A stretch of 28,827 nucleotides of DNA from a virus: IMG/VR virus record IMGVR_UViG_3300047287_000438, positions 1 to 28,827 of that record; one strand, given 5' to 3'. The translations under genes were made by a program, and so were the position numbers. The notes under the pieces are model-generated. The model was given only the letters and a program-made list of their open reading frames with translations, had not been told where the DNA came from and made no database searches. Shown in pieces: positions 1,762 through 25,368 of the stretch (position 1 is the stretch's first letter; each line of letters starts with the position of its first letter).

Positions 1762-1772
1762 GGAAATCTCGA
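1762..1772 (+). promoter_or_regulatory. late-gene element copy (GGAAATCTCGA)
   Basis: This copy of the recurrent element lies in the 40-nt gap between the 110-residue ORF and the portal gene. It ends 21 nt before the portal GTG. It could be the promoter of the portal to minor-head-protein operon. Confidence 0.55.
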
Positions 1773-1793
1773 ATATACGTGTGACTGCGAAGC

Positions 1794-3347
1794 GTGGCTG
1801 ATAACAGCACCTACCCCATGCGGGTGTCATCAGCTGCTCCGCTACAGCTGCAGTACGGCAACAGGGAGGATCCGAGCATCCTGAGCAGCGCGGTGCTGTC
1901 CATGCGCCCGCAGTGGGAGCCGGTTGATATTTGCATTGGCGGCACCGCTGTCCTCCGCGCCAACGCGGAGAAGATCATCCCCCGCGAGCCCAGCGAAGCC
2001 CGCGAGAGCTATGAGCGGCGCATCTTCCACGCCACGATGCCCCCGTTCTTGCCCCGCCTGGCCTCTCAGGCGGCGGGTGTAATCCTGCGCAAGGGCATCC
2101 AGATCGAGGGCGACGAGTATTGGGAGGAGTGGATCAAGGATGTAACGGGTGATGGCACCACCCTCAACGAATACGCCCGCCGCCAGCTGATCACGGCGAT
2201 CCTCTACGGGCACAGCAGCAGCATCGTTGATTTCGTCAACGACACCACGGCTCGCACCTTGGCCGAGGAGCGTCGTCTGAACCGCAAGCCGTATCTGGTG
2301 CCGATCCACCCGCGGCAGATCCTGGGCTGGCGCACCAGCAACGACTCCAACAGCAGCGAGCTATCACAGGTGCGTATCAAAGAGCGCATTGTCACCGCTG
2401 ACGGTGCCTATGGCGAGGAGCTGATCGACCAGATCCGGGTGATGGAGCCAGGCCGCTACGAGCTGTGGCGCTCACCTGCCACCACCTCCACGGCTGCTGC
2501 TCCCAGCTGGCAGTTGGAGGAGCGGGGAACCACCAGCCTGGAGCGCATCCCACTGGTGACGGTCTACAGCAACCGCCAGGGGAACCTACTGAGCACCCCA
2601 CCGCTGCAGGAGGTGGCGTATCTGTGCATCGCCTACGCGCAGCGGTTCTGTGACTTCCACCACGCCGTCCATGTCAGCGCCAACCCGATGCTGGTGCTGC
2701 GCGGCTTCGACCCCGATAGCGACGCTGAACTCGGCATCAGTGTGAACACGGCGCTGCTGCTGCCTCCGGATGGCGGTGCGGAGTTTGTCAGCCCCACCAC
2801 CGAAGCCTTTGACAGCCAGATGCGGTGTCTGCAGGCGCTGGAGGATCAGATCAGCCGGCTCGGCATCAACACGCTGAGCAGCCAGAACCTGACCAACGCC
2901 GCAGCGGAAGCTCGCCGTTTGGATCGGATCGACTCCGACTCGATCATGGCTGTGATCGCAGGCGATCTGGAGCGTGCCATCAGCCAGCTGTTTGAGCTGG
3001 CAGCGGAGTACGTGGGCATTGAGCCACCCACGGTGTTCATCCCCCGCGACTACGACAACCGTCTGGTCACGGGCAACGACATCACGGCTTACCTGCAGCT
3101 GTACATGCAGGGTGCGATCAGCCAGGAGACGCTGCTGGGCATCTTGCAAGACGGCGAGATCCTGCCGGCCACGCTGTCCATTGACGAGGAGATCAGCCGC
3201 ACGCAGGAGATGCTGGCCGAGCAGCAGGCCATGGACCGCATGGCTGCAGGGGGTGCCGACATGGCGTTCCAGAACGCCGGTCAGGGCGAGTCCTTGAGCA
3301 GCCAAACGCTCCCCACACCCCTGCGCCCCGGCCGCAACGCCAACTAA
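1794..3347 (+). CDS. phage portal protein (DUF4055-like)
   Basis: This is the dodecameric connector at the capsid vertex through which DNA enters and leaves. The 517-residue length and the position between terminase and a MuF-like minor head protein are diagnostic of siphophage head modules. The N-terminal third, with an arginine/tyrosine-rich helix (ESYERRIFHATMPPFLPRLA) followed by AAGVILRKG, resembles DUF4055 portals. The central part is mixed alpha/beta. Residues about 330-420 form the long helical stem region (MRCLQALEDQISRLGIN). The C-terminus is helical and acidic. The start is GTG at 1794; there is no clear Shine-Dalgarno, but a late element lies upstream. The family name is assigned by pattern, not by search. 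Confidence 0.88.
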   Translation: MADNSTYPMRVSSAAPLQLQYGNREDPSILSSAVLSMRPQWEPVDICIGGTAVLRANAEKIIPREPSEARESYERRIFHATMPPFLPRLASQAAGVILRKGIQIEGDEYWEEWIKDVTGDGTTLNEYARRQLITAILYGHSSSIVDFVNDTTARTLAEERRLNRKPYLVPIHPRQILGWRTSNDSNSSELSQVRIKERIVTADGAYGEELIDQIRVMEPGRYELWRSPATTSTAAAPSWQLEERGTTSLERIPLVTVYSNRQGNLLSTPPLQEVAYLCIAYAQRFCDFHHAVHVSANPMLVLRGFDPDSDAELGISVNTALLLPPDGGAEFVSPTTEAFDSQMRCLQALEDQISRLGINTLSSQNLTNAAAEARRLDRIDSDSIMAVIAGDLERAISQLFELAAEYVGIEPPTVFIPRDYDNRLVTGNDITAYLQLYMQGAISQETLLGILQDGEILPATLSIDEEISRTQEMLAEQQAMDRMAAGGADMAFQNAGQGESLSSQTLPTPLRPGRNAN

Positions 3348-3350
3348 GCC

Positions 3351-3596
3351 ATGCGCCACCACCCCAGCTGGCGAGAAGTACGCCATGAGTTCATGCGCGA
3401 TCTAGTGCCGATCAACGCCACCTGTGCGGTGTGCCGCTGGTGGTTTCCAGAGAGCAGTGCTGCGTCAGACCCTGTTGGCTACTGCCACTTCAGCCCACCA
3501 ACGGTGGAGGGCTGGCCCCAGACCAACGGGGACGAAGACGTGTGTAGTGCGTGGGAGACGGACTACCAGCCCGTTCCTCGCGTGAAGGCCGCATGA
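3351..3596 (+). CDS. small cysteine-rich phage protein, probable metal binder
   Basis: The protein has 81 residues. Cys25 and Cys28 (CAVC), Cys45 (GYCHFSPP) and Cys65 (DVCSAW) form a four-cysteine set that could hold one zinc ion. The spacing, with a Pro-Pro and WPQT segment before the last Cys, fits a small family of phage proteins with the pattern CxxC...G-C...P...WP.T..D.C..W. Its exact role is unknown. It starts 3 nt after the portal stop and its TGA overlaps the next ATG (ATGA), so it sits tightly in the portal operon. Confidence 0.8.
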   Translation: MRHHPSWREVRHEFMRDLVPINATCAVCRWWFPESSAASDPVGYCHFSPPTVEGWPQTNGDEDVCSAWETDYQPVPRVKAA

Positions 3597-4402
3597 CCAA
3601 CGAGCAATACATCCGCGAGCTGGCGCAGGCCATCACCCGCCAGGAGGATCTAAGCGACGAGGAAGCCCAGCAGGTGCTCTACGAGCTGGCGCTGCGCATC
3701 TACGCCCTGCTGCTGAAGCGCCTGCCGGAGGGGCGCTTTGAACGCTACCTGAGGTGGCCGGAGCTACGGCGTCAGATCACGCTATGGCTGCTGGAGGCCA
3801 ACGACCGTCTTGCCCAGACGCTGTTCAGCCGCCTCACTGCCGCTGAGACGCTGGTGCTGGCACCCACCAGCAAGCTGTTCAAGCTGCCTGAGGGACGCTT
3901 GACTGCGAGGCCCGTCGCTGAGCTGCTGGACGCCACAGAGGTGATCGGCGTGCCGGTGTCGCGGTTGTTCGCACGTAATGCGATGACAGGCATGACGCCC
4001 TGGGTAGCGCAGATGCTGCAGCTGCTGGAGCGCAGCCTGATTACGCTGTTCTTCCAAGACCCACCCACCAGCGCAGTGGCGCAGAAGGTCATTGGCGTCC
4101 GCACCCGCTTGGGTAAGGAGGTGCCAGTGGTGAGCAAAGGCACGGTGGCCAATGCGTGGCGCGAACGCCAGCGCAACATCGTGGCCGCGGCGTTGTGGAG
4201 CCCCGTCACTCCAGCTGCTCTACGCGCCGCTGAACTGTCCGCGGTAGCGAGCTGGCGCTGGAACGCAATCCTGGACCCCAAGACGTGTCCGGTGTGCCGC
4301 CCCTTGCACCGCACTACCGCACCAACACCTGAGGACTTCCCGCAAGGCCCACCTCCTCTACACCCTCGGTGCCGTTGTGTAGTGCTACCGCAATTTGAGT
4401 GA
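3593..4402 (+). CDS. phage minor head protein, MuF/SPP1 gp7-like
   Basis: This is a head morphogenesis protein that associates with the portal and is packaged in the prohead. The protein has 269 residues. The C-terminus carries the hallmark metal-binding signature of the MuF/gp7 domain: CPVC at 232-235, His239, then PPLHPRCRC with His257, Cys260 and Cys262. The N-terminal 200 residues are helical. I chose the ATG at 3593, which overlaps the previous stop (ATGA), over a GTG 42 nt upstream. The gene is followed by a 49-nt gap holding a strong copy of the late element. Confidence 0.88.
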   Translation: MTNEQYIRELAQAITRQEDLSDEEAQQVLYELALRIYALLLKRLPEGRFERYLRWPELRRQITLWLLEANDRLAQTLFSRLTAAETLVLAPTSKLFKLPEGRLTARPVAELLDATEVIGVPVSRLFARNAMTGMTPWVAQMLQLLERSLITLFFQDPPTSAVAQKVIGVRTRLGKEVPVVSKGTVANAWRERQRNIVAAALWSPVTPAALRAAELSAVASWRWNAILDPKTCPVCRPLHRTTAPTPEDFPQGPPPLHPRCRCVVLPQFE

Positions 4403-4420
4403 GTTACCTGTGTAGCTAAG

Positions 4421-4431
4421 GGCAACTTAGG
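4421..4431 (+). promoter_or_regulatory. late-gene element copy (GGCAACTTAGG)
   Basis: This near-consensus copy lies in the 49-nt gap between the minor head protein and scaffold genes. It ends 20 nt before the scaffold ATG. No Shine-Dalgarno is visible between the element and the start. Confidence 0.6.
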
Positions 4432-4451: not shown

Positions 4452-5180
4452 ATGACTGAGCAAGTCATGGGTGCTCCTCAGGTAGAGGAGCAAGTTGATT
4501 CCGTGAATCAGCAGCCCGATGCCCCCGCCAGCACCGACGATGCAGCAGCGATGCGGCGCAAGCTAGAGCTTGTCCAGCAGGACAATCTCAACAAAGGCGA
4601 AGCGAACCGCAAGCTCAATGAGCGTCTCGGTGAACTCGAGCGTCAGCTCAGGGAGCGTGAGACAGAGCTTAAGTCGGGCAAACAGCAGCAACTCGCCTCT
4701 CAAGGTGAGTACAAGAAGCTGTGGGAGGACGCGAACGCGGACAATGCGCGTTTGCAGCAGCGCATCACCGAGCTTGAAGCCGCGCTTCAGGCAAAGGACA
4801 GCGAAGCCGAAGCCGAGCGACTACGCGCCAGCGCAATGCAACTGATCAGCCAGGCATCAGCCTTGGCACCTGAACAGCTGTATGGCCTGTTGGCACAGAA
4901 GCTCCGCAGCAGCGATTCCGGTCCCACGGTGATCGTGAACGGCATTGAGCAACCGCTGAATGCGTACCTCACCCAACTTCGGAACCCCGGCTCAGGCTGG
5001 GAACACCACTTTGCTGCCACCGGCACCCGTGGCATGGGCAGTGCGCCCAGCACCAACGGTATGCCAGGTGTTGTGAACCCGTATAAGCGCGAGACGTTCA
5101 ACCTGACGGATGCACTGCTGTTGGAAGCAGAGAATCCCGATCTCGCCAAGGCCCTCAAGGCTGAAGCAGTTCGCGGGTAA
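4452..5180 (+). CDS. capsid scaffolding protein
   Basis: This is the internal scaffold that directs capsid assembly and then leaves or is cleaved. The protein has 242 residues, with an acidic, disordered N-terminus (about 1-35) and a long coiled coil from about 36 to 135 rich in Glu, Gln, Arg and Leu (KLNERLGELERQLRERETEL). A flexible Gly/Ser/Pro segment follows at about 175-210, and a short C-terminal helix (LLLEAENPDLAKALKAEAVR) probably binds the capsid protein. Position directly before the capsid gene and the coiled-coil design support the call; sequence conservation in this family is low. It appears to be its own transcription unit after the late element at 4421. Confidence 0.85.
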   Translation: MTEQVMGAPQVEEQVDSVNQQPDAPASTDDAAAMRRKLELVQQDNLNKGEANRKLNERLGELERQLRERETELKSGKQQQLASQGEYKKLWEDANADNARLQQRITELEAALQAKDSEAEAERLRASAMQLISQASALAPEQLYGLLAQKLRSSDSGPTVIVNGIEQPLNAYLTQLRNPGSGWEHHFAATGTRGMGSAPSTNGMPGVVNPYKRETFNLTDALLLEAENPDLAKALKAEAVRG

Positions 5181-5186
5181 GTCACG

Positions 5187-5197
5187 GTAAACCCCGC
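5187..5197 (+). promoter_or_regulatory. weak late-gene element before capsid gene
   Basis: GTAAACCCCGC resembles the element (7 of 11 positions) but lacks the second G and the conserved T. It ends 11 nt before the capsid ATG, closer than most copies. It may be a diverged site or chance; the capsid gene could also be read from the scaffold promoter. Confidence 0.25.
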
Positions 5198-5208
5198 ATT
5201 TAAGAGCC

Positions 5209-6282
5209 ATGTCGCTTCAGAACATGGGTGGCACCACCCTGAGTGGTCTCGTCACCCGCCCCGAGTTTCTCGCTTACACCAGCGAGCGTATTTTTGAGCA
5301 GTCGGCTTTCATCCAAGCCGGCGTTGTGCGTCGCAATTCTGCTCTGGACTGCCGCGCAGGTGGCACCCGTGTGCGCGTGCCCTTTTTCGACTACATCGCT
5401 CCGACTGAGGAGCAGATCAAGTCGTCCAACGATTGGGGCACCAGCGGTGCCGGTTATCTGACTTCGCAGTCAGTGACTGCCGACGAGCAGATCATGACGA
5501 TCCTGCACCGCGGCTTCCAGTTCGCAACCGACGATCTCTCGTCGCTTGCAACCGGTAGTGACCCTCTCGGTCATGTATCCTCTCAGCTGGCAGCCGCCAT
5601 TGCCAAGCTGAAGACCGCCACCCTGCTGGCTCAGCTGAACGGCCTGTTCGGCAACATCAGCGGCAGCGGTGTGCTGGGCGCCAACACTTACAACGCTACT
5701 GGCACCACGACTGCAACGGCGTCTAACTACCTGACTGCCGCTAACGTCATCAAGGCCAAAGCCAAGCTGGGTGAGCGCGGCAGCGATCTGACTGCCATCG
5801 CCATGCACAGCAACGTCGCCGCCTACTTGGAGGAGACGGGTTACATGCAGGTGCAGGTGAGCGGTTCCACCGTTTCCGGCGCCACTGGCCTGATCGGCGT
5901 TCCCTATAACACCTTTGCTGGCCTCCGCGTCATCGTGGACGACCAGATCGGCGTGATCAGCGGCGGCACCAGCACCCACTTGAACAAGTATCCGGTGTAT
6001 CTGCTGGGCAACGTGATTGCCGAAGGTGTGCAGCAGGATCTGCGCGTGGATACGGACCGTAACAAGTCCAGCTTCCAGGATCTGCTGATCTGCGACTACC
6101 ACTACGGCTACCACGTCCTGGGAACCAAGTGGGGCGCTGCTGGCGACAACCCGACCAACGCTGCCACCACTGGCAACCTGGCTGCTACCGGCTCTTGGAC
6201 TCTGGCCTACCAGACCGCCAAGAACGTGCCCCTGGTGCGTCTGTTGGTGAATTCGCCATATGATGTTGGCACCTACGCCTGA
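5209..6282 (+). CDS. major capsid protein
   Basis: This is the shell protein of the head, expected to have an HK97-like fold. The protein has 357 residues, starting MSLQNMGGTTLSGLVTRPEF and continuing with an N-arm, a charged segment (GTRVRVPFFDYI), then alternating helices and strands. Typical features are the RGFQFATDDLSSLA region (about residues 100-115), the AIAMHSNVAAYLEE helix, and the conserved C-terminal strand with YHYGYHVLGTKW and PLVRLLVNSPYDVGTYA. It directly follows the scaffold gene and is followed by a strong terminator, as expected for the most abundant protein. Codon use is strongly GC-ending. The family is assigned from context and overall character. Confidence 0.92.
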   Translation: MSLQNMGGTTLSGLVTRPEFLAYTSERIFEQSAFIQAGVVRRNSALDCRAGGTRVRVPFFDYIAPTEEQIKSSNDWGTSGAGYLTSQSVTADEQIMTILHRGFQFATDDLSSLATGSDPLGHVSSQLAAAIAKLKTATLLAQLNGLFGNISGSGVLGANTYNATGTTTATASNYLTAANVIKAKAKLGERGSDLTAIAMHSNVAAYLEETGYMQVQVSGSTVSGATGLIGVPYNTFAGLRVIVDDQIGVISGGTSTHLNKYPVYLLGNVIAEGVQQDLRVDTDRNKSSFQDLLICDYHYGYHVLGTKWGAAGDNPTNAATTGNLAATGSWTLAYQTAKNVPLVRLLVNSPYDVGTYA

Positions 6283-6298: not shown

Positions 6299-6327
6299 AG
6301 CCCCCACGCAATGTGGGGGCTTTTTTA
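6299..6327 (+). terminator. rho-independent terminator after capsid gene
   Basis: AGCCCCCAC and GTGGGGGCT form a 9-bp GC-rich stem around the loop GCAAT, followed directly by a run of Ts. It lies 16 nt after the capsid stop and just before the 3' end of the convergent minus-strand HTH gene. It is therefore placed to end rightward head-gene transcripts. Confidence 0.9.
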
Positions 6328-6331
6328 ATGC

Positions 6332-6622
6332 TTACTCAGCCGCGAGGCGGTTCTCTTCGTGGCGCTCAAACACACTGATGGTGTCGATCGACATCTTGTA
6401 GCTCTGCACCATCACTTGATTAACGAGCACGTAAGGCACGTCCAGCTGATCAGCGATAGCGGGAACGGTCAGACCCTCTTCACGCAGGCGACGAATGTCG
6501 GCAACGACGACCTTCCAGTCACGCTTGCCACTGGGCTCTGCGGCAGCCGCTTTAGCCGACTTCTTCCGCACCGGCTTTTCAGGGGCGGCCTCTACGGCAG
6601 GCGTGAGATCGGCGTCAGTCAT
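6332..6622 (-). CDS. small helix-turn-helix protein on the opposite strand
   Basis: The protein has 96 residues. The first 35 are a low-complexity Ala/Lys/Pro/Glu arm. Residues about 36-78 form a compact helical domain with a helix-turn-helix pattern (REEGLTVPAIADQLDVPYV), suggesting DNA or protein binding. I chose the ATG at 6622 rather than the longer reading back to 6691, because the late element on the minus strand ends 15 nt before 6622. It runs against the head genes and shares a 61-nt divergent region with the head-completion gene. It could be a late regulator; no family is recognised. Confidence 0.7.
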   Translation of the reverse strand: MTDADLTPAVEAAPEKPVRKKSAKAAAAEPSGKRDWKVVVADIRRLREEGLTVPAIADQLDVPYVLVNQVMVQSYKMSIDTISVFERHEENRLAAE

Positions 6623-6637: not shown

Positions 6638-6648
6638 CCGAAGTTGCC
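6638..6648 (-). promoter_or_regulatory. late-gene element, minus strand (GGCAACTTCGG)
   Basis: Read on the minus strand this is a near-consensus copy ending 15 nt before the HTH gene start at 6622. It stands back-to-back with the plus-strand copy at 6652-6662, 3 nt apart. Confidence 0.6.
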
Positions 6649-6651: not shown

Positions 6652-6662
6652 GGAAATCTAGG
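6652..6662 (+). promoter_or_regulatory. late-gene element copy (GGAAATCTAGG)
   Basis: This plus-strand copy ends 19 nt before the ATG of the head-completion gene at 6682. It is paired with an inverted copy at 6638-6648. Confidence 0.6.
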
Positions 6663-7257: not shown

Positions 7258-7304
7258 AGGTATCTAGCAAATCAGCCTTATTGGCTGGTCGCTAGGGTAT
7301 CTAT
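7258..7304 (+). promoter_or_regulatory. leader of the short sigma gene with direct and inverted repeats
   Basis: The octamer GGTATCTA occurs at 7259-7266 and again at 7296-7303, just before the GTG at 7305. Between them lies a nested inverted repeat: CTAGC (7264-7268) with GCTAG (7291-7295), and CAGCC (7273-7277) with GGCTG (7283-7287) around loop TTATT. AGGTATCTAGC resembles the late element only partly. The layout would suit an operator, an RNA hairpin hiding the start, or a diverged promoter pair. Confidence 0.5.
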
Positions 7305-7880
7305 GTGGCTAACTCAGCTCTAGCTGACGAGCCGGGTACGCCGGCAGAGTCGGTGCGTCGTCGTCCTCGCACCGGCTACTTATCGACGCCGCTGAATAAA
7401 GACGAGCAGCGCCACGTTGGCGCCATGTACCGCAAGCATCAGGGCTTGCTGCGCCTGCTGGGCCGCAAGCTCTGCCGCAAGTACCCCTTTGTCAGCGCAG
7501 AAGACATCTTCAGCTGCATCGACACAGCTTTTATCAAGACCTGCCGCGCCTGGGATCCCAACCGTGGCGCGTTCAGCACGCTGCTCACCGTCTTCTCTGA
7601 GGGTGACGTGCTGCACTTCATCCGCGATTCCAACTGGACGGTCAAAGCCCCCGGCGCAGTACGCCGCATCGGCCAGCTTGCCCGCAAGATGCTGGAGCGC
7701 GGCGAAAGCATGAATGCTATCCGCGACGAGCTAGGAGTCAGCGACGAGCAGCTCAAGCTGGCGCTGGTGGCCACACAACCCACCGACCACGATATTCGCG
7801 GCTTCGACCTTCACGTCTGCCCCCGTCCCAACCCGTGGGAGATGCTGGAGGCGACGGAATACGGCTACGGGGAAAACTAG
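7305..7880 (+). CDS. short sigma-70-like protein lacking region 4
   Basis: The protein has 191 residues. Residues about 34-107 follow the sigma region 2 pattern: a helix (DEQRHVGAMYRKHQGLL), then SAEDIFSCIDTAFIKTCRAW, the typical FDP-like WDPNRGAFSTLL segment, and a 2.4-like helix EGDVLHFIRD. Residues 112-155 resemble region 3, with VKAPGAVRRIGQLARKML and then SMNAIRDELGVSDEQL, a helix-turn-helix. No region 4 follows. It probably binds host RNA polymerase core and directs it to a -10-type element, perhaps the 11-bp late element in this window. It sits among head-tail genes, so it would be made late. It starts with GTG at 7305. An HTH regulator unrelated to sigma is the main alternative. Confidence 0.72.
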   Translation: MANSALADEPGTPAESVRRRPRTGYLSTPLNKDEQRHVGAMYRKHQGLLRLLGRKLCRKYPFVSAEDIFSCIDTAFIKTCRAWDPNRGAFSTLLTVFSEGDVLHFIRDSNWTVKAPGAVRRIGQLARKMLERGESMNAIRDELGVSDEQLKLALVATQPTDHDIRGFDLHVCPRPNPWEMLEATEYGYGEN

Positions 7881-7881
7881 C
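7871..7881 (+). promoter_or_regulatory. late-gene element copy (GGAAAACTAGC)
   Basis: This copy overlaps the end of the short sigma gene, including its TAG stop, and ends 26 nt before the tail tube ATG. This is the longest spacing among the good copies. Confidence 0.5.
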
Positions 7882-8437: not shown

Positions 8438-8914
8438 TCAGCGGCGCTGAGCCAACTGGTTCCAGCGCCTAACCAAGAATGGCAAGAACGGCCGCTCCCC
8501 TTCGGGTCGGAGCTGCGCATACGTTTTTTGAATCCAATCCCGCGACGGTGCCACGTAGTTAGCTCGCACCGTCCCAATCACATAACCACCAGCACGTACA
8601 GCCTCTGAGTATGGGGCCATCCACTGAATCTGGAGCTTGCTGACGTTCCCCACTGAGGACACCTGCGGGGATGTCGCGGAGTTCATCAGTTTTCCAGTGT
8701 CCACGATGTCGCGTGGCGTTGTAACCTGCTGGCCGTTTTTGCGGTAGGTGATTATCCGTGTGCCGTCGCTGCGGGTGCGCGGCCATTCGTATTGAATCTT
8801 GGCCAGCTCCTGCTCGGACTGAAACGCCACTTGAGGCCCAAACTCCTCCAAGATCTGAGGAACGCGAGCCAGCAGGCGGTCAGCGTTCCATTCGGTGATG
8901 CGGAACTGCGCCAT
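8438..8914 (-). CDS. tail completion / neck protein, HK97 gp10-like
   Basis: The protein has 158 residues. The N-terminal helix (RLLARVPQILEEFGPQVAFQSEQELAKI) followed by a beta-rich part with DIVDTGKLMNSATSPQV, then APYSEAVRAGGYV and a C-terminal helix, is the pattern of HK97 gp10-type neck or tail-completion proteins (the DTG.L..S segment is characteristic). It would join the head connector to the tail tube. It is encoded on the minus strand, opposite to the other structural genes around it, and its ATG overlaps the upstream gene's stop (TGATG), so the two form a small divergent operon. Confidence 0.72.
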   Translation of the reverse strand: MAQFRITEWNADRLLARVPQILEEFGPQVAFQSEQELAKIQYEWPRTRSDGTRIITYRKNGQQVTTPRDIVDTGKLMNSATSPQVSSVGNVSKLQIQWMAPYSEAVRAGGYVIGTVRANYVAPSRDWIQKTYAQLRPEGERPFLPFLVRRWNQLAQRR

Positions 8915-9309
8915 CAGCGCTGACCGCGAGCGACCAAGCGAATGCGATCCCCCAATGCAGCCTGGAGGGTGGCACCGAGGATGCCTGTGCCGCCATAAGC
9001 CATACGCAGCTCCAGCACTTCACAGTCCACGGTCTCCTCGCCGGCAAAAGCAAGCGTGCCCACAGAACCCACCACCACACCAGCAGGCACAACCTGAGGA
9101 TTAACCGCGTATCCCTCGTAGACCGTATCGACGACCTCTACTCCGGGGTAAGGGGAGTAGCCAACCTTCTCAGCGCGGAGAAACAGGCTCAGCGTCGTGG
9201 TGCCCGTGACGGCAGTGACATTACCTGTATCAGGGTCCGTCAGCACACCAGTAGCTGCCACCTCCAGTGTGGCAGTGGCGTTAGCTAGGGCGGAAAGAGC
9301 AGAAGCCAT
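8914..9309 (-). CDS. head-tail connector-like protein on the minus strand
   Basis: The protein has 131 residues from the ATG at 9309. It is beta-rich, with TGTTTLSLFLRAEKV, PGVEVVDTVYEGYAV and the C-terminal GGTGILGATLQAALGDRIRLV. This looks like a small stopper or connector protein, though I cannot name the family firmly. It is the first gene of a two-gene leftward unit with the gp10-like gene. The inverted late element ends only 2 nt before the ATG, so either the mRNA is almost leaderless or that copy acts as an operator half-site. A reading back to 9333 is possible but would run through the element. Confidence 0.62.
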   Translation of the reverse strand: MASALSALANATATLEVAATGVLTDPDTGNVTAVTGTTTLSLFLRAEKVGYSPYPGVEVVDTVYEGYAVNPQVVPAGVVVGSVGTLAFAGEETVDCEVLELRMAYGGTGILGATLQAALGDRIRLVARGQR

Positions 9310-9311: not shown

Positions 9312-9322
9312 CCGAAGTTGCC
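9312..9322 (-). promoter_or_regulatory. late-gene element, minus strand (GGCAACTTCGG)
   Basis: This copy is identical to the minus-strand copy at 6638-6648. It stands back-to-back with the plus copy at 9329-9339, separated by TGCTGC. Its 2-nt distance to the ATG at 9309 is unlike all other copies. Confidence 0.5.
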
Positions 9323-9328: not shown

Positions 9329-9339
9329 GGCAACCTCGG
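9329..9339 (+). promoter_or_regulatory. late-gene element copy (GGCAACCTCGG)
   Basis: This consensus copy ends 20 nt before the GTG chosen for the tape measure gene. It probably serves the long tail operon that runs with no real gaps to about 18114. Confidence 0.6.
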
Positions 9340-12246: not shown

Positions 12247-13638
12247 ATGACTATCACCATTGGATCCTTCTCTTGTAATACCCTAACGGCACAGCCGTAT
12301 GGCTATGAGGGAGAAGCTCGCCTCGGGTTAACGTCAAGGGCATTTCGTGTTAGCGGTCTACTTACTGCTAGTCAGTGGTCAGCACTGCGAAATGTTTATG
12401 ATACGTGGCGCAATACTAGAATCACTGACGACGATAGCCTTAAAACAGAGTCAATCGGAACTACAGTATCGCTTAGCAGCACATCTGCAAACGGCATTAG
12501 CTTTAGCAATGTTGCCTGCTGGTTTGCTGACGCACCGGCTGGCGAGCAGCTAGGTGCCTATGTTTCTGCTTCGGCAACCCTAGTAGACGCAACGCAGGCG
12601 TTAGCTGTACTCTTGCGTGAGCGGGAGTTGGCTAAGCAGCGAGAGCTGGTTGACGCAGAGCAAACTGTAGATTGCGCCAAAATTGCGGCCGATTTAGCGA
12701 GGAGGCGCGACGAAACTGATTGTGAGTTGAGCGCCCTAGCAGGCGGCTTGGCAGATGATTTTGCTGCTCAGAGTGTTACACGGGAAACGCTTGAAAAGAC
12801 CGCACAACTTTCAGCGCTTGGTGGTGGCGCGTCTGACTCACTAGCGCAGTTAGATGCACAGCTGAGCGTTCAGTCAAAGACCTCAGAACTTGCTACAGCA
12901 AACGCATACGGAGAAACGCTGGCTGGACTTGATGCACAGCTGAGCGTTCAGTCAAAGACCTCAGAACTTGCTACAGCAAACGCATACGGAGAAACGCTGG
13001 CTGGACTTGATGCCCAGCTTGAGGTAGCAAAGAAGACAGCGGATAATGCTGTTGCGAGCGCGTATGCAGGTGACATAGCTGGCCTAGATTTAGCGAGAGA
13101 AGTAATTGACGCAGAAGCTCGCGCAGCATTGTACGCAGGTGCTGGAGCAGGCAGTATCCAAGCACTAAAAACTGCCGAAGTTGATATTGAGATTGCGGAG
13201 TCCGCTGCTCGCGTTGCGGCGCTTGGGCCAAAGCTGGAAGACTTAAAAAGTAGTCGCAGCCTGTTGGCGCTCTACGAAAGTTATTTGACCGAAGACCTGC
13301 CAGACTTTGGGAGTGAGAGCGTTGGTCCAGTGCAACTAACATTGCTAAAGCCGGCAGAGTCTCGTAGCGCTGGGCCCTCTGTAAGTCTGACCGCAACTGG
13401 GAACACTTATATCAGCGGAGCATTAGGAACGCTGGTAGCCAAAGACATTGAGGGCTACACGACAAGCCTTTCAGCAGCATCACTGATGAGCTGGTACGAC
13501 AGCGTTGTTTCCCAGTCTCCAGGCTCGGGTACATGGTTTCCTGCGGCAGCACCAAGCGTGAGAGCTGAAAAAGTCTTGGTGAATGGGTTGGTAGGAACAC
13601 GCTACATCGTTACGGTGACCTTGGTGCAGATAACCTAA
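12247..13638 (+). CDS. tail protein with inserted coiled coil and 26-residue repeats
   Basis: The protein has 463 residues and follows the tape measure, where a distal tail or minor tail protein is expected. Residues 1-115 are beta-rich (QPYGYEGEARLGLTSRAFRVSG). Residues about 118-335 are a long Ala/Glu/Leu coiled coil. Residues 345-463 are again beta-rich, so it looks like a beta domain split by a helical insert. Two identical 26-residue units (203-228 and 229-254, DAQLSVQSKTSELATANAYG...) sit in the coil, followed by a degenerate third unit. I chose the ATG at 12247, 4 nt after the previous stop. The exact family is unknown. Confidence 0.75.
   Translation: MTITIGSFSCNTLTAQPYGYEGEARLGLTSRAFRVSGLLTASQWSALRNVYDTWRNTRITDDDSLKTESIGTTVSLSSTSANGISFSNVACWFADAPAGEQLGAYVSASATLVDATQALAVLLRERELAKQRELVDAEQTVDCAKIAADLARRRDETDCELSALAGGLADDFAAQSVTRETLEKTAQLSALGGGASDSLAQLDAQLSVQSKTSELATANAYGETLAGLDAQLSVQSKTSELATANAYGETLAGLDAQLEVAKKTADNAVASAYAGDIAGLDLAREVIDAEARAALYAGAGAGSIQALKTAEVDIEIAESAARVAALGPKLEDLKSSRSLLALYESYLTEDLPDFGSESVGPVQLTLLKPAESRSAGPSVSLTATGNTYISGALGTLVAKDIEGYTTSLSAASLMSWYDSVVSQSPGSGTWFPAAAPSVRAEKVLVNGLVGTRYIVTVTLVQIT
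12853..13008 (+). repeat. tandem 78-bp repeat, two identical copies
   Basis: Copies at 12853-12930 and 12931-13008 are identical by eye, in frame, and encode 26 residues each. A third, diverged unit begins at 13009. The identity at every codon position points to a recent duplication. Confidence 0.92.
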
Positions 13639-16601
13639 TGGCTATTGATATACGTGCGTCAATCTTCTGCAATCTTGGGGACATTATCCAAGCCAACATT
13701 TCGGATTCTGGCGTTTCTGAAGCCGGGCTTGTCAGGACGACAGGAGCCTGCGAAGTAGTTGGCACCAGCACGCCAAACATTGGCACTGCGGTCACGTTTT
13801 CATACACCACCCCGGATGGTGTCACACGAGCGGTCCCGCGCACGCTGTATGTTTTAAGCAGCTTTGCTAATCCATACAAGTCAACGACCGAAATTCAGCT
13901 TGGCTGCGCGTTGACCTACAAAGAGGGCTTGCGCGAAGTCATTAAGTGGGATGCTCTTGATGATCCAGCAAATGGCAGTTTTACTGCAGCCGATCAAGCA
14001 GTTATCACCGTGCCGATCAGTGCTAGCTCGGTAATGAACTACTGCTTAGAACAGCTTGAGCTTACGGCAACACAAAACCCATTAACCAACAAGTTTTCAA
14101 TTCCCGAGTTTGACTATAGCGCCGGCTATGTCCAGATTCTTAACGACCTTTTGGTTAGCGAAAGCTACTGCGGCTTTCTAAATGCAAACGGGGAGCTAGA
14201 GGTATTTTCATTAGACACTGATGGTGGTAGTGGGCCGGTAATAGGCATAGACAAGATCATTGATGTTGGCGGCATCAATGCGGGTCAGCTACCTGGGGAA
14301 GCTGTCACCGTCAGCTACAGCACGCTTAAGCTGAAACAACCTGATAATACCAATACCAATGCGGGTCAGTTGGGACCGCGTTGGGAAACAGTAGAAGCCA
14401 GCAGCTACCGCGACGTGATGATTACCTACACAAGTGCCAGCAGCGGCGAGCAGGAGTATAGGGTATACGGCACGTTAGACAGTACAATAAGCACAACATA
14501 CTATTCAGACTTTAATATCGCCAATCTTGTGCCAGGCACTGGCGCCTTCAAGATTGTTAGCGGTTACGAAAAAGTCCGCAAGGTATCCAAACGATATACA
14601 GTTGAGCGGACTGGCTCCGTGTCAACTGAGGGCTCTATTGCCTCAAGCTACCTTGCCAATGGACTGGACTACAGCAGCAGCGACCTATACACTGCCACCA
14701 CCGAAACGTTTACTTATGACTCATATGGAAATGAGGTTTATTATGTCAGCAATAAAGTAGGCTCCTCGGCCCATCTTATCGGCAACCTTGGCGTGCAAGA
14801 TTGGGTATTTACAGACAGCACAGGCGTACAAGCATATGCGCCTCCTAGAGGTGACCAAGTTAGCATTGCTCGCGTTGAACGCCAGACAGAGACTATTGGC
14901 GACTATCAACGGGTCGTAACCCGGACATATGGGCCTTGGACTAACACTATTGCTGGCCAGCAGGCCATGGCAATCGGCTTGCGTGGTATTGCTTCTTACA
15001 ACGAGCTTAGCGAGACCCTTGCCAGCGTCCCAGGCCGGCTATACCTGCTGAACACATCAGTTGAGACAAGACGCACAGCGGAAGGCGAGGTTGCACCTAC
15101 AGAAGCCGATATCACTAACAGTACTTATGCAAATGGCGGCGATCCAAGCAACGGGTATCGGACCGAAAGCAAAGTCGAGCTGCAGCTTGCGTTGGGCAGT
15201 GCTGCTGCACAGCGGCGCATTGAGTTCAATCTTCCCTATGCGCCTGATGATGTATTTACAAAATCAGGTGGCACATATTCTTCCGTTGAAAGCGACGCAG
15301 TTCAAAAAGCCACAAAGTACGGGCGTGTACAAAACAAGATATTACTGGCCAACAGAAATGGAATGAATGTCCAGACGGCAGCGGACGTTTTGTCGGCGAA
15401 ACCGTTTGAGTTGTTTGTTGTAACAGCCAACGGCATCAGCGGGGTTTATCGCACTAATGCGATGTCTTGGACAATGAGCGGGGATGGCATTGTCGCTTCA
15501 ACCGATGCTCTGTTTTGGGGTGGTGCTGGAGCAGCGCCGGCGACTACGGGCTCAGCTTGGTTCCCCACCAGCCCAACAATTACAACGCTGCCAGTGGCCC
15601 CAGCGGTGGTCAATACCGCACCTGCGCAGGTCGTTGGCACGACCTCCACCGTCAGCATCAGCAGTGGGGCAACCCCGAATACGGTCCCAAGTGTTGGGGC
15701 AAACCCACAGACAACACTCAACACCGTGTACCCAAATGCCGTAGCTGGGCACGTGGTGCAGGATGCTACGACGGATGAGTTGTGGGTCTACAACGGCGGC
15801 ACGTGGGCAAGTGTCGGTACAAATCCCACGCCGGCGCAAGTGTTGGGGGCTGGCTATCCCACAGCCGTCTCAGGCGATGGCGTTCAGGATCAGGCGACGG
15901 ACGAGTTCTGGGTCTACGACGGCAGCGCCTGGGAAAACGTCGGCACGAACCCCGGCCCCACGATGACCGTTGCGACGACGGTGCCGGTCTGGAACGAGAC
16001 GGCCAAAGCAGTAGGCCGTATCGCGCTTTCTGTTGAGGTGTCAAGCCTGCCGTACCCGCTAGAGGTTTTGACGCCCATAGCTGGAAACACGCGCACAACT
16101 CTAGAAATCACCAGACTTGTACCGATTAAAGTCCCGCTAGTTGCTGTGGCGCTGGCGGCTCAACCAGCAGCGGTGGTGACCGGCTCAGCGGTACGAGTCC
16201 CATTGACCAGTGTGGCTGTTGCTGCAGTCGAGCCAGCAGTGCTCATTGGCGTTGGCCTCACTGCCCCGCTTGCAGCTGCGATTGCACTTGCGGCAATCAG
16301 TCCGGCCGTAAGGACTGGCGCCAGTGCAACAACGCCACTGACAACAGTAGGCATTGCAGCCTTGGTACCGTTGTCTGTTGGCGGTGCTGGGGCTTTGCTG
16401 AGCGCCCCTGCAATAGATCTTGCCGTAGCCGCAGCCGCACCCACTGTGGTGACGGGAGCCAGCAGCCAAGTGCCATTGGTTGCAGTCAGTTTGTCGGCAG
16501 CGGCCCCTGAGGCAACCTTGGAAGGAGACTATTTCGGCAGCATGGCAGTTCAGCTGTACGGCTGGGAATCTGACTTCTACATTCCCTGGTGGGGCAACTG
16601 A
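13638..16601 (+). CDS. tail tip / hub protein with fibre-like C-terminal repeats
   Basis: The protein has 987 residues. The N-terminal 650 residues look like a baseplate hub or tail-tip protein: beta-rich start, EGLREVIKWDAL, then large beta domains with VNYSTL-like strands (TVSYSTLKLKQPDN) and ending SAWFPTSP. Residues about 697-775 hold two related units with WVYNGGTWASVG and WVYDGSAWENVG, as in phage fibre stalks. Residues about 833-965 are six hydrophobic 22-24-residue repeats (PLVAVALAAQPAAVVTG). The C-terminus YGWESDFYIPWWGN is aromatic. Its ATG overlaps the previous TAA. It likely binds the tail tip and presents a fibre. Confidence 0.75.
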   Translation: MAIDIRASIFCNLGDIIQANISDSGVSEAGLVRTTGACEVVGTSTPNIGTAVTFSYTTPDGVTRAVPRTLYVLSSFANPYKSTTEIQLGCALTYKEGLREVIKWDALDDPANGSFTAADQAVITVPISASSVMNYCLEQLELTATQNPLTNKFSIPEFDYSAGYVQILNDLLVSESYCGFLNANGELEVFSLDTDGGSGPVIGIDKIIDVGGINAGQLPGEAVTVSYSTLKLKQPDNTNTNAGQLGPRWETVEASSYRDVMITYTSASSGEQEYRVYGTLDSTISTTYYSDFNIANLVPGTGAFKIVSGYEKVRKVSKRYTVERTGSVSTEGSIASSYLANGLDYSSSDLYTATTETFTYDSYGNEVYYVSNKVGSSAHLIGNLGVQDWVFTDSTGVQAYAPPRGDQVSIARVERQTETIGDYQRVVTRTYGPWTNTIAGQQAMAIGLRGIASYNELSETLASVPGRLYLLNTSVETRRTAEGEVAPTEADITNSTYANGGDPSNGYRTESKVELQLALGSAAAQRRIEFNLPYAPDDVFTKSGGTYSSVESDAVQKATKYGRVQNKILLANRNGMNVQTAADVLSAKPFELFVVTANGISGVYRTNAMSWTMSGDGIVASTDALFWGGAGAAPATTGSAWFPTSPTITTLPVAPAVVNTAPAQVVGTTSTVSISSGATPNTVPSVGANPQTTLNTVYPNAVAGHVVQDATTDELWVYNGGTWASVGTNPTPAQVLGAGYPTAVSGDGVQDQATDEFWVYDGSAWENVGTNPGPTMTVATTVPVWNETAKAVGRIALSVEVSSLPYPLEVLTPIAGNTRTTLEITRLVPIKVPLVAVALAAQPAAVVTGSAVRVPLTSVAVAAVEPAVLIGVGLTAPLAAAIALAAISPAVRTGASATTPLTTVGIAALVPLSVGGAGALLSAPAIDLAVAAAAPTVVTGASSQVPLVAVSLSAAAPEATLEGDYFGSMAVQLYGWESDFYIPWWGN
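15726..15960 (+). repeat. two diverged WVYxG units in the tip protein
   Basis: Two units of roughly 40 codons repeat the pattern V-QDxxTDExWVYxGxxWxxVGTNP. DNA identity is moderate, so this duplication is older than the 78-bp repeat at 12853. Such units are common in phage fibre stalks. Confidence 0.65.
16131..16530 (+). repeat. six hydrophobic 22-24-residue repeats in the tip protein
   Basis: The coding sequence repeats a pattern of Pro-Leu, then alternating Val/Ala, then Pro-x-Val-x-x-Gly about six times. Copies differ at many positions. The alternating pattern suggests a beta-solenoid or triple-beta fibre shaft. Confidence 0.6.
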
Positions 16602-18132: not shown

Positions 18133-18143
18133 GGCAACCTAGC
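18133..18143 (+). promoter_or_regulatory. late-gene element copy (GGCAACCTAGC)
   Basis: This copy lies in the 46-nt gap before the gene at 18161 and ends 17 nt before its ATG. It is preceded by GCGCA, a prefix shared with the copy at 23618. Confidence 0.6.
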
Positions 18144-20700: not shown

Positions 20701-21293
20701 CCCGAGGGTTCCCCGGTCAATTTGACCGCAGCACCTACGGCACTGAGTTGCGGGTGACGGTGCTTGTCGCGTGGAAGGCGCTGCAGAAGCTGAAGCGTGA
20801 GGAAATGGCACTAGCTGAGCTGCCGGTGGCCAGCCTTGCGGCACTGACGGCCAACATCAACCGCGACCCGAAGAAAGGCAAGCCGTTTGCTCCGGCCGAC
20901 TTCGCCTTGTTCCGCGAGAAGGAAGAACCGACCGCCCAGCTCAGCGCTGAGGTGGCCGCCACCGCTTTAGCACTACGGCATGAAGACAAGCTGCCGTCAA
21001 TCCTGCTGACCGCCTGGCAGCAGATCCTGGCATCCGCCAACGAGAGTGCTGCACCACCAAGCGTCAGAGCGCTGCACTCGGATGATCAACGCGTTTGGGT
21101 GCTGTGCCCCAGCTGGGAGGGCAAGAACTGCCGTGGCGGCTTGGTGGCCGTGCATGGCCAGATCAGCGGGTCGGTGCTGCTGCGGGATCTTGATCGCCAA
21201 CTTGCCACCTATGAGGTGCAGATCCCCGCCAGACCATTGGCAGGCTGGCTGGAAGCCGGTTTGCTGTTGGTGGCCGGAAATCTAGCCGTATGA
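20640..21293 (+). CDS. tail chaperone frameshift extension (GT-type C-terminus)
   Basis: This -1 frame has no good ATG at its beginning, yet its translation upstream of the first start-like codon (TTG at 20748) is protein-like, including TDWAQLFWELARGFPGQFDR, typical of the T part of GT proteins. Read as a fusion from 20086 it gives about 402 residues. The extension is helical at first (VLVAWKALQKLKREEMALAE) and then mixed. Its stop overlaps the next ATG (ATGA). A separate start at 20748 would cut off the conserved-looking segment, so the frameshift reading is preferred. Confidence 0.8.
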   Translation, partial: AAAGNADRGQTDWAQLFWELARGFPGQFDRSTYGTELRVTVLVAWKALQKLKREEMALAELPVASLAALTANINRDPKKGKPFAPADFALFREKEEPTAQLSAEVAATALALRHEDKLPSILLTAWQQILASANESAAPPSVRALHSDDQRVWVLCPSWEGKNCRGGLVAVHGQISGSVLLRDLDRQLATYEVQIPARPLAGWLEAGLLLVAGNLAV

Positions 21294-21692: not shown

Positions 21693-21703
21693 GGAAACCT
21701 TGG
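21693..21703 (+). promoter_or_regulatory. late-gene element copy (GGAAACCTTGG)
   Basis: This copy lies in the 34-nt gap before the gene at 21723 and ends 19 nt before its ATG. It is preceded by GAGCGC. Confidence 0.58.
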
Positions 21704-21722: not shown

Positions 21723-22100
21723 ATGGCAGTCTTTCCCGGAGCTGGTGATGCGTCAGTCCGGTTGGCGTTCAACGATGCCAACGGTGTGGAGCAGAGCGTC
21801 ACCGCCACCACGGCACTGCCGATTGAACCGCTGGGCCAGGCTGGTGTGGCACGCAAGCTGACTGCAGGCGCCAGCAGCGCCAACACCGCGCTCACGTCTA
21901 CCTGCAAGCGGGTCACGATGCGAGCAGTGACGGCTGATATTCGCTACAGCATTGGCACCACTTCGCAGACGGCTACCACCAACAGTCACTTCATCGCTAG
22001 CGGTGAGCGGTTGGATCTGGCGGTGCCGTTGGGCGCCAACATTGCTGTGATCCGCGATGCAGCTACCAGCGGCACGCTGGAACTGACCGAGCTGGTCTGA
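21723..22100 (+). CDS. small beta-rich phage structural protein
   Basis: The protein has 125 residues from the ATG at 21723, chosen because the late element ends 19 nt upstream and a longer reading would run through it. It has many Thr, Ser and Ala. The second half (TCKRVTMRAVTADIRYSIG, SHFIASGERLDLAVPLG, then ANIAVIRDAATSGTLELTEL) is a strong beta pattern like small capsid-decoration or tail-tip proteins common in phages. The exact family is not known to me. Its stop overlaps the next start (TGATG). Confidence 0.72.
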   Translation: MAVFPGAGDASVRLAFNDANGVEQSVTATTALPIEPLGQAGVARKLTAGASSANTALTSTCKRVTMRAVTADIRYSIGTTSQTATTNSHFIASGERLDLAVPLGANIAVIRDAATSGTLELTELV

Positions 22101-22906
22101 TGCCAAGACTGCGCGTAACACGCAACAGCGCCACGGGCGCGGCTGTAGCGGCCGTTGCTGCAGGCCCCAGCTATGACGCTGATGCGACGACGTATTTCGC
22201 TGCGGTTGAAGCGGCTGACGGGCAGAGCCTAGAAAGCGGCGTGAAGACCGCGATCAATGATTTCATCGTGGGCTGCAAGGCTGATGGTGTGTGGAGCGCG
22301 ATTAAAGCGTCGTGCATCTTGGCGGGTGCTAGGACACTGGCCGGTGCGCTTGTGCCACTGGTAGGCACCGCACCTACCAACTATAACTTTGTTAGCGGTG
22401 ACTACAACCGTAAAACTGGCCTTGTTGGCAACGGCACAACCAAATATCTAAACAGCAACAGATCAGGCGCTGCTGACCCACAAAATAACTTCCATATGTG
22501 TTGCTACAGGAATAGCGGAACCAATAACACACAAGTTGTTATGGGTGACGATGGCGACGAGGGTGGCGGAAAGAACTGCATGTTGTTCTACAACGGCTCT
22601 ATGTATGTTCGCGTGCGCCATTCAATTGCAAATAATCTGGGCACTTCTACTGGGCTTCAGCTAGTTGGCGTATCTAGATCGTCTGGCACTGCGTACACTC
22701 ACAGGCGCTCTGGACAGAACACTGCAGTCAATCAAACATCTTCCGCGCCGGTAAGTCAGGCTATTGCTTTGTACGCAGGCAATACGCCAAATACTTTTAG
22801 CGCCCAGAGCCTTACTTTCTACTCCATTGGCGAAGCACTGGATCTTGCCTTGCTTGACACCCGCATCACAGCCCTGATGTCCGCCCTGGCTACTGCCATC
22901 CCATGA
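22100..22906 (+). CDS. tail adhesin-like protein
   Basis: The protein has 268 residues. The N-terminus (about 25-75) carries a segment seen in many phage surface proteins: ADATTYFAAVEAADG, then GVKTAINDFIVGCKADGVWSAIKASC. The remainder is beta-rich with many Asn, Ser and Gly (KTGLVGNGTTKYLNSNRSG) and resembles a lectin-like fibre head; it ends with a short helix (LDTRITALMSALATAIP). From about 22375 to 22840 the DNA is less GC-rich than both ends of the gene, suggesting exchange of the receptor-binding part. It is coupled to the gene before it. Confidence 0.72.
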   Translation: MPRLRVTRNSATGAAVAAVAAGPSYDADATTYFAAVEAADGQSLESGVKTAINDFIVGCKADGVWSAIKASCILAGARTLAGALVPLVGTAPTNYNFVSGDYNRKTGLVGNGTTKYLNSNRSGAADPQNNFHMCCYRNSGTNNTQVVMGDDGDEGGGKNCMLFYNGSMYVRVRHSIANNLGTSTGLQLVGVSRSSGTAYTHRRSGQNTAVNQTSSAPVSQAIALYAGNTPNTFSAQSLTFYSIGEALDLALLDTRITALMSALATAIP

Positions 22907-23253: not shown

Positions 23254-23264
23254 GGCAACTTAGC
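23254..23264 (+). promoter_or_regulatory. late-gene element copy (GGCAACTTAGC)
   Basis: This copy lies in the 46-nt gap before the lysis genes and ends 23 nt before the GTG at 23288. Confidence 0.6.
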
Positions 23265-23617: not shown

Positions 23618-23628
23618 GGAAACCTAAG
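23618..23628 (+). promoter_or_regulatory. late-gene element copy (GGAAACCTAAG)
   Basis: This copy lies in the 38-nt gap after the micro-ORF and ends 23 nt before the ATG at 23652. It is preceded by GCGCA, as at 18133. It is the only good copy without G at position 10. Confidence 0.55.
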
Positions 23629-23816: not shown

Positions 23817-23821
23817 GCACC

Positions 23822-25003
23822 GTGGCCTCAATCCGTTTGAGCGATGCGGCCAAGTGGGATTCGCGTGAACCCCACCAGCTGGCTGCCTGGAATTGGCTGC
23901 AGGAGCAACTCAGCGAGCAGGTACTGCAGGAGTTTGGGACGCTGTACCGCGCTGCCCCAGACCCCAAGACCCCGCTGCCTCCGCCGTGGCTAAACCCCGC
24001 GCTGAAGATCATCCGTGAGTACGAAGGCGTAAGGCTCACCTCCTACCCAGATCCAGGTACGGGTGGGGCCCCCTGGACAATCGGCTGGGGCGCGACCCGC
24101 ACGAAGGACGGCCCAGTGCGTCGGGAGCAGACCATCACGCAACAGGAAGCTGACGAGCTGCTGGTGCATGACGTGGAGCAGCTTTTTGGCCCTGGCGTGC
24201 TGTCGCTAATCCCCGCTGCAGCGAAGTGGCGCCCCAACCAGATCGCTGCGATCACCAGCTTTGCGTACAACCTGGGGCTCGGAGCACTGGAGGAGAGCAC
24301 CCTCCGAAAGCGCCTCCTCGCCGGGGAAGATCCCTGCACCGTCGTGCGCGAGGAGCTGCCGAAGTGGGTCCATGCCGGCGAAGCGGTGCTGGCTGGTTTG
24401 GAGCGTCGCCGCAAGGCTGAGGTTGAGCTGTTCTGCGGCATCCCTCTGCAGCAGGCCGCGGCCAAGACCAACCCACTGCGGGTGCCGTACTACAGCCAGC
24501 GCGATAGCGAAGTCGCAGGCCAGGCATCACGCATGTGCTTCTCGTCAAGCTGCGCCATGCTCGTGGCCACGCTCAAACCGGGCGTGCTGAAAGGCCCTAA
24601 CGGCGACGATCAGTATCTGCAGCGGGTGCGTCAGTACGGCGACACCACCGACGCCAACGCCCAGATCAAAGCGCTGGCCAGCTACGGCATCAAAGCCAAG
24701 TTCCGCCAAGACTGCGACTGGAAGGATCTGGAGCGCCAGATCGACCGCGGAATCCCAGTCCCAGCGGGGTTCTTGCATCACGGGCCCAGTTCCAAGCCGA
24801 CTGGTGGCGGGCATTGGCTGATCGTGATCGGCCACACCCCCACCGCCGTCATCGTGAACGACCCGTGGGGCGAGATGTTGGTAGCCGATGGGAGCTATGC
24901 GGGTAGCCGTGGCGCTGGGCTTGCCTACTCCCGCCGCAACTGGGGACCGCGTTGGCTCGTCGATGGCCCAGGTAGCGGCTGGGCGATCATCGCTGAGCCA
25001 TGA
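23822..25003 (+). CDS. bifunctional endolysin: GH24 lysozyme plus C39-like peptidase
   Basis: The protein has 393 residues. Residues about 57-205 are a GH24 (T4-type) lysozyme with the catalytic set EYEG (Glu68), YPDPG (Asp77) and TIGWG (Thr86), followed by the family's helical part (AAITSFAYNLGLGALEESTL). Residues about 218-390 resemble a C39-like cysteine peptidase: VPYYSQRDSE, Cys239 in QASRMCFSSSCAM, His331 in GGHWLIVIGH and Asp347 in VNDPWG. Together they would cut both glycan and peptide bonds of the cell wall. It starts with GTG 5 nt after the preceding stop. No signal peptide is seen, so export would rely on a holin. Peptidase activity is inferred from motif order only. Confidence 0.85.
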   Translation: MASIRLSDAAKWDSREPHQLAAWNWLQEQLSEQVLQEFGTLYRAAPDPKTPLPPPWLNPALKIIREYEGVRLTSYPDPGTGGAPWTIGWGATRTKDGPVRREQTITQQEADELLVHDVEQLFGPGVLSLIPAAAKWRPNQIAAITSFAYNLGLGALEESTLRKRLLAGEDPCTVVREELPKWVHAGEAVLAGLERRRKAEVELFCGIPLQQAAAKTNPLRVPYYSQRDSEVAGQASRMCFSSSCAMLVATLKPGVLKGPNGDDQYLQRVRQYGDTTDANAQIKALASYGIKAKFRQDCDWKDLERQIDRGIPVPAGFLHHGPSSKPTGGGHWLIVIGHTPTAVIVNDPWGEMLVADGSYAGSRGAGLAYSRRNWGPRWLVDGPGSGWAIIAEP

Positions 25004-25164
25004 ACGAAAACATCTCCCGCCGCATCCAAGAGGGGCTGTGGGTGGTGCAACGCACCGACACGAAGGTGGAGGTGTGGATGGCGATGGCCAATGGCATCAC
25101 CTACATGAGCTACTGCGAGGAAGCTGCTCGGCTCTGGCTGTCCCGCGAACGCGACGAGCGCTAG
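25000..25164 (+). CDS. 54-residue protein after endolysin
   Basis: ATG at 25000 overlaps the endolysin stop (ATGA) and the frame ends TAG at 25162-25164. The product starts MNENISRRIQEGLWVVQRTD and has a compact alpha/beta pattern with VEVWMAMANGITYMSYCEE and a C-terminal charged helix. There is no membrane segment. Translational coupling to the endolysin is the main evidence that it is real. The role is unknown. Confidence 0.6.
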   Translation: MNENISRRIQEGLWVVQRTDTKVEVWMAMANGITYMSYCEEAARLWLSRERDER

Positions 25165-25180
25165 CGGCATCGTTATAGCG

Positions 25181-25345
25181 TTATGGCCGTTTGTCCCCAC
25201 GGGAAATGCGTAGGCACTCCCATGTCACTTCAGCCTGCCAGCGCTGGCGGTGCTCAACGCAGTAGCCAAGACCACACACCCGCCAGATTTCTTCACCATT
25301 TCGCTCTAATTTCTCCACAATTATTTCATCTCTCACCGGAAACAT
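25181..25345 (-). CDS. 54-residue minus-strand protein
   Basis: The start is ATG at 25345, chosen because a minus-strand late element ends 12 nt upstream; a longer frame from 25378 would read through the element. The product begins MFPVRDEIIVEKLERNGEEI and contains WRVCGLGYCVEHRQRWQAEV, with two cysteines 5 residues apart, then a Trp-rich helix. It is convergent with the gene at 25000. No family is recognised. Confidence 0.55.
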   Translation of the reverse strand: MFPVRDEIIVEKLERNGEEIWRVCGLGYCVEHRQRWQAEVTWECLRISRGDKRP

Positions 25346-25348
25346 AGA
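25338..25348 (+). promoter_or_regulatory. late-gene element copy (GGAAACATAGA)
   Basis: This slightly divergent plus-strand copy ends 23 nt before the ATG at 25372. It overlaps the start codon of the minus-strand gene at 25345. Confidence 0.45.
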
Positions 25349-25357
25349 GAACAGCTG

Positions 25358-25368
25358 CCTAGGTTCCC
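25358..25368 (-). promoter_or_regulatory. late-gene element, minus strand (GGGAACCTAGG)
   Basis: Read on the minus strand this copy ends 12 nt before the ATG at 25345. With the plus copy at 25338 it forms a face-to-face pair, the opposite layout to the pairs at 6638-6662 and 9312-9339. Confidence 0.52.

Follow-up and report, generated by a model that had tools for sequence, protein, structure and literature searches.

A predicted single-block late promoter, and a small sigma factor as its likely reader, in a group of uncultured phages

The 28.8-kb virus record IMGVR_UViG_3300047287_000438 (28,827 nucleotides (nt), analysed at its full length and termed the window) encodes a large terminase and portal, scaffold, major capsid, head-tail adaptor and major tail proteins, as well as an endolysin, an integrase and two proteins of the sigma factor type. 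One is a group-2 sigma of 368 amino acids (aa) at 25535-26641 on the minus strand; the other, at 7305-7880 on the plus strand, is a small sigma-like protein of 191 aa. Distributed among these genes is an element of 11 base pairs (bp) found shortly before gene starts, which is interpreted here as a late promoter with the small sigma as its likely reader. The nearest isolates, judged by the portal protein, are the cyanobacterial siphoviruses S-2L, S-H1, KBS-S-2A and MED4-184, at 32-36% identity, and the close relatives are all uncultured IMG/VR contigs. The host is presumably a cyanobacterium, with no finer assignment. A search of a host-genome collection with the small sigma returned a single short contig binned as Rhodoferax, which is probably misbinned, and therefore no host is named. 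Scans of the window for RNA families and tRNAs found none.

An original prediction from this DNA listed 13 copies of the element, and all of their positions and strands are correct; a 14th exact copy at 21276 on the plus strand had been overlooked. The sequence GGNAANNT is, as claimed, common to all 13 copies, and 12 of them have G at position 10. The consensus first written, GG[A/C]AA[C/T][C/T]T[A/C]G[G/C], fits seven of the 13 exactly, and the remainder deviate at one or two positions. In the window the strict pattern has eight exact matches (0.47 expected), a number reached by none of 100 shuffles.

In the head and tail region, plus-strand copies precede the genes for the portal protein (GGAAATCTCGA, 1762-1772, 21 nt before GTG 1794), the scaffold (GGCAACTTAGG, 4421-4431, 20 nt before ATG 4452), the head-tail adaptor (GGAAATCTAGG, 6652-6662, 19 nt before ATG 6682), the major tail protein (GGAAAACTAGC, 7871-7881, within the final codons of the small sigma gene, 26 nt before ATG 7908) and a putative tape measure protein (GGCAACCTCGG, 9329-9339, 20 nt before GTG 9360). 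Further plus-strand copies are at 18133-18143 (GGCAACCTAGC, 17 nt before ATG 18161), 21276-21286 (GGAAATCTAGC, 3 nt before ATG 21290), 21693-21703 (GGAAACCTTGG, 19 nt before ATG 21723), 23254-23264 (GGCAACTTAGC, 23 nt before GTG 23288) and 23618-23628 (GGAAACCTAAG, 23 nt before ATG 23652), with a weak copy at 25338-25348 (GGAAACATAGA, 23 nt before ATG 25372). On the minus strand, GGCAACTTCGG is found both at 6638-6648, back to back with the 6652 copy and 15 nt before ATG 6622 of a 96-aa protein, and at 9312-9322, 2 nt before ATG 9309; GGGAACCTAGG at 25358-25368 faces the 25338 copy and is 12 nt from ATG 25345. The copies at 9312 and 21276 are of a putative leaderless type and are conserved in relatives. 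The gaps are thus 2, 3, 12, 15, 17, 19, 19, 20, 20, 21, 23, 23, 23 and 26 nt, in keeping with the 12-26 nt, and 2 nt for one copy, first reported. Copies are oriented toward the gene served, the minus-strand copies pointing at the minus-strand ATGs 6622, 9309 and 25345. The integrase, 368-aa sigma and DUF3310-type genes have no element before them, as had been noted. The rule that no element separates genes which abut or overlap does not hold strictly, as the 21276 copy is inside a gene end and the ATG that it precedes belongs to an overlapping gene.

Matches inside genes and away from starts, such as those at 14781 and 16511, are treated as chance. A terminator or hairpin function for the copies that face each other (6638/6652 and 9312/9329) was rejected: the hairpins arise because the elements stand back to back, and single copies lack them. 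The gene of the 96-aa protein (6332-6622) lies between the capsid and adaptor genes, runs against the late direction with a late element of its own and is found in part of the clade only.

The element is abundant in related phages. A home-made gene caller, which is blind to the element, and the open reading frame list confirm the gene starts of the window, and nine related contigs were scanned with a weight matrix built from well-placed sites. At a score of at least 12 there are 107 sites in the nine contigs, compared with 10.6 in dinucleotide shuffles and 10 in reversed sequence. At a score of at least 9, 80 of 140 sites are within 30 nt before a same-strand start, although such positions make up 2.1% of the total; an element equally frequent inside genes, which would have spoken against a promoter, is not what is seen. 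All of 16 related contigs contain the pattern, which gives few matches when read backwards. Among 7-mers before starts in ten loci outside the matrix set, AACCTAG is the most enriched (15 versus 0.27), followed by GGAAACC, GAAACCT and AACTAGG. Sites in homologous phages are not fully independent, even after thinning.

Over the relatives the consensus is GG[A/C]AA[C/A/T]CT[A/C]GG. In 68 distinct sites G1, G2, A4, A5, T8 and G10 are invariant, these positions being fixed by the search pattern; in a looser matrix set, whose cut-off also favours them, 189 of 190 sites have G10 and every site has the other five. Just downstream, positions 14-16 favour A and position 17 almost never has T. The element has neither internal dyad symmetry nor a Shine-Dalgarno core. 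The absence of a shared -35 block, first judged by eye, is borne out, as no position between -44 and -4 upstream of it is conserved. Matches to TTGACA plus TATAAT at a spacing of 16-18 nt are no more frequent than by chance and do not coincide with the elements.

The small sigma is a sigma-70-family protein that displays regions 2 and 3, and profile matches to SigB and SigF extend through region 3. Pfam region 2 is matched by 39 of 43 homologues at E<=0.05. By sequence, SigB is the top sigma match among solved structures (E 4.8e-6), and in a fold search with the structure model sigma factors fill the top matches, with SigB first. The model was built from 43 sequences, a first attempt with 17 having been poor (predicted local distance difference test score (pLDDT) 53). 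A search for region 4 found none, and the protein ends about 35 residues past the region-3 helices. The gene is present in about 100 contig stretches.

Presence of the element follows presence of this gene. In 81 small-sigma loci, every one of which carries it, the element has 341 matches, versus 29 on reversed sequence. Portal relatives with the small sigma have 58 versus 2, and those without it 63 versus 55, an excess that comes partly from short fragments of the same clade. All 14 records compared from the small-sigma group carry the element, G010 (see below) included. Among loci with portals at 51-58% identity, one, L244 (about 54%), has both small sigma and element; three others (L239, L243 and L248) have the same head-gene order, TerL-portal-scaffold-major capsid protein-adaptor, and in these no small sigma was found and GGMAAHYTMGG has no match, including in the whole 48-kb contig of L243. 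Positions 6 and 9 of the element vary with the sigma clade, two clades preferring C or A at position 6, which may reflect co-evolution of sigma and element, or drift. As element and gene go together, the 191-aa protein, not the 368-aa sigma, is the likely reader.

It is unlikely that the element is a late promoter with some other reader, be it the 368-aa sigma, a host SigF, or an activator together with the host RNA polymerase. These phages do carry the 368-aa sigma as well; loci with its relatives, however, show no enrichment (37 matches versus 38 in the control), and as a protein with regions 1.2, 2, 3 and 4 it would be expected to need a -35 box. SigF of Synechocystis, which is of the same sigma subfamily as the small sigma, uses promoters with GGTAA at -12 and TAGGC at -32 (PMC2758279). 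The first motif is close to GG[A/C]AA of the element, but the -32 block of the SigF core promoter has no counterpart here.

Spacing to the start codon was analysed with 269 distinct sites at an 80% identity cut. Gaps are 2 nt at 20 sites, 3 nt at three, 4-10 nt at none and 11-32 nt at 171, mostly 17-24 nt. All 23 short-gap starts are ATG, compared with 101 ATG, 68 GTG and 2 TTG among the 171 others (p=3e-5); with stricter thinning ATG is found in 11 of 11 versus 80 of 133 (p=0.007). The base A peaks at element position 15. Three gene families, each with similar N-termini from phage to phage, make up the short-gap class. In the clade of G011 and G012, the family of the window gene 8914-9309 has its element about 17 nt before a GTG, as read by eye. 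As a separate observation, GTG starts are found in 68 of 171 leadered genes served by an element and in 55 of 357 genes with none.

The bimodal gap points to a transcript start just past the element, some 6-8 nt after the conserved T8, i.e., at about position 14-16 from the first G. This predicted start is somewhat nearer the element than the 6-10 nt after it first proposed. It would explain both classes, as messages would either be leaderless or have a leader of about 12-20 nt; the empty 4-10 nt class would correspond to leaders of 1-8 nt, from which poor translation would be expected.

The close spacing to start codons, the sense orientation and the scarcity of leaders with a Shine-Dalgarno sequence (12 of 133) are also what might be expected of a translation element acting in the message, either a non-standard ribosome site or something similar to the start-associated sequences of cluster K mycobacteriophages. 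The latter are 13-bp repeats with a Shine-Dalgarno core, located 3-7 bp from the starts of non-structural genes (PMC3203893). Although both repeats are tied to gene starts, the element described here has no such core, serves virion genes and does not keep to a 3-7 bp spacing. A ribosome element is not expected to work at two separate spacings with none at 4-10 nt, and a translation element should not be missing before downstream genes of a unit, including the major capsid gene, which follows a 28-nt gap. The lack of a Shine-Dalgarno core and the link to the sigma gene also disfavour this explanation, which is quite improbable. The bimodal gap, the ATG-only starts of the putative leaderless class and the late-only use argue for a promoter rather than a ribosome-binding element.

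Late-only use is best seen in the related contig G012, which is close to complete, as its end overlaps its own start. Start-linked elements are found there in the virion and lysis region; in the stretch with DNA polymerase, primase, single-strand-binding and exonuclease genes no element is at a start. No T7-like single-subunit RNA polymerase was found among the large G012 proteins examined.

The small sigma gene has no late element at its start. Six nt before its GTG, at 7293-7298 on the plus strand, is TAGGGT, a proposed sigma70-type -10 box. In 16 of 29 distinct relatives TANNNT is found 4-9 nt before the start (2.3 expected), in ten at exactly six nt, and the gene seems to form a leaderless sigma70-type unit expressed from this motif. 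This suggests a two-step order, predicted to run from the sigma70-type promoter through the small sigma to the late genes.

The element is proposed to act as a late promoter of one block, an extended -10 box, that the host core RNA polymerase recognises when it carries the 191-aa phage sigma; this reading is based on comparative sequence analysis and is given a probability of a little over three-quarters. The original suggestion, of a one-block promoter used by late genes only and dividing the late region among numerous small units, is likewise favoured by the comparative evidence. A4 would be placed at -11, T8 at -7 and G1-G2 at -14/-13, with the start at about positions 14-16. Region 2 of the sigma would read and melt the -10 element and region 3 would read the bases just upstream; a -35 box would be missing because the protein has no region 4. 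Once made from its sigma70-type -10, the small sigma would activate the short late units, about a dozen in number. Some of their messages would begin exactly at the AUG, and others would have the short leaders described above, in which Shine-Dalgarno sequences are rare. Scans for sigma-70 promoters and terminators in the window were at chance level, except for an intrinsic terminator at 6299-6327 on the plus strand. This has a 10-bp stem and a T run, follows the major capsid gene and would close a late unit.

The -35 boxes of extracytoplasmic function (ECF) sigma factors are GGAAC-like, and GG[A/C]AAC is similar to these. If the element were such a box with a weak -10, the -10 would run into the start codon and transcription would begin within genes, an arrangement impossible for the copies 2-3 nt from an ATG. 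With no conserved block 14-20 nt downstream, and with a phage small sigma that lacks region 4, this explanation is very unlikely. If the element were instead an operator, marking late promoters for a repressor or activator of the phage, a short repeat near gene starts with some copies facing each other would be accounted for, but this is highly implausible, as no separate -10/-35 promoter stands beside the element (scans being at chance), the spacing to start codons is too tight and dyad symmetry is absent.

Several observations weigh against the proposed late promoter and its reader. For a -10 box the element is rich in GC, and the major capsid gene lacks a copy. With 21.4 bits, region 2 of the small sigma is just under the Pfam cut-off of 24; the structure model is of moderate confidence (mean pLDDT 74) and the fold-search E-values are borderline (2.8e-3). 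One contig, G010, has six elements, but a small sigma was not found there; it is a linear fragment with the adaptor-to-tail stretch missing. Co-occurrence of element and sigma is in part due to shared descent and thus does not prove recognition. One gene family supplies most of the leaderless class (about 17 of 23), and two further families make up the rest.

Two other arrangements were seen in passing. G010, in which the sigma-tail stretch is missing, has three nearby copies of a homologue of the window protein encoded at 22100-22906 (locus L128, 380-2766). In the window, directly after the integrase stop at 27135-27164 on the minus strand, GGGAATCTCGG is followed by a strong hairpin (GGGAGGTGGGTACGCCTCCC); similar arrangements are in G003 (31147, minus strand) and G013 (38067, plus strand). 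A terminator, an attachment site and a weak promoter are candidates for this structure.

Known systems offer parallels. The T4 late promoter is read by the sigma gp55 at an AT-rich element, TATAAATA, and needs gp33 and the gp45 clamp. It shares with the window a single -10-like block and a short sigma that lacks region 4; the element here, in contrast, is GC-rich, and partners of the gp33/gp45 type were neither sought nor found. In phage phiEco32, gp36 also lacks region 4 and reads a single element, tAATGTAtA, with the start 6-8 bp downstream, at middle and late genes; the missing -35 was explained by the missing region 4 (PMC8948821). The window system appears, by analogy, to work in the same way: a phage sigma with no region 4, one conserved block with no -35, and elements at late and not early genes. 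It differs in phage group and host, in its GC-rich element, in a sigma that is nearest to SigB/SigF of group 3 and retains region 3, and in its many late units, some apparently leaderless. As to kinship with the sigma family of phiEco32 gp36 and 7-11 gp47, tblastn gave no match to phiEco32-like phages at E<=0.01, and no direct comparison with gp36 was made.

Group-3 sigma genes have also been seen in cyanobacterial siphoviruses. P-SS2 was reported in 2009 to carry one, ORF003, of unknown target (PMC2784084). S-CRES1 (locus L227) has two sigma-like proteins (4757-5533 and 12308-13042), one of them SigF-like, which aligns with 65% of the small sigma at 30% identity. ORF003 and S-CRES1 gp20 resemble the window protein as group-3 SigF-like sigmas present beside another sigma, but unlike it they adjoin terL, and no promoter is known for them. 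When S-CRES1 was examined for a similar block, mostly Shine-Dalgarno words and no comparable block were found.

A more elaborate picture can be offered tentatively, at somewhat short of even odds. A truncated group-3 sigma and an 11-bp GC-rich element would form a self-contained late switch with a precisely fixed start site. The position of the element, at one of two distances about 15 bp apart, would set leaderless or short-leader translation for each late unit, and sigma and element would change together between clades.

A search of the literature, which was incomplete, found no description of cyanosiphovirus late promoters. A late promoter, its start site and its sigma can now be predicted for cyanobacterial phages of a large uncultured group. 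As a compact sigma-promoter pair, the system might find practical use in cyanobacterial genetics. It would add a GC-rich, SigB/SigF-like case to the few sigmas known to work with no region 4 and, if the reading is true, would indicate that leaderless late messages are conserved in these phages.

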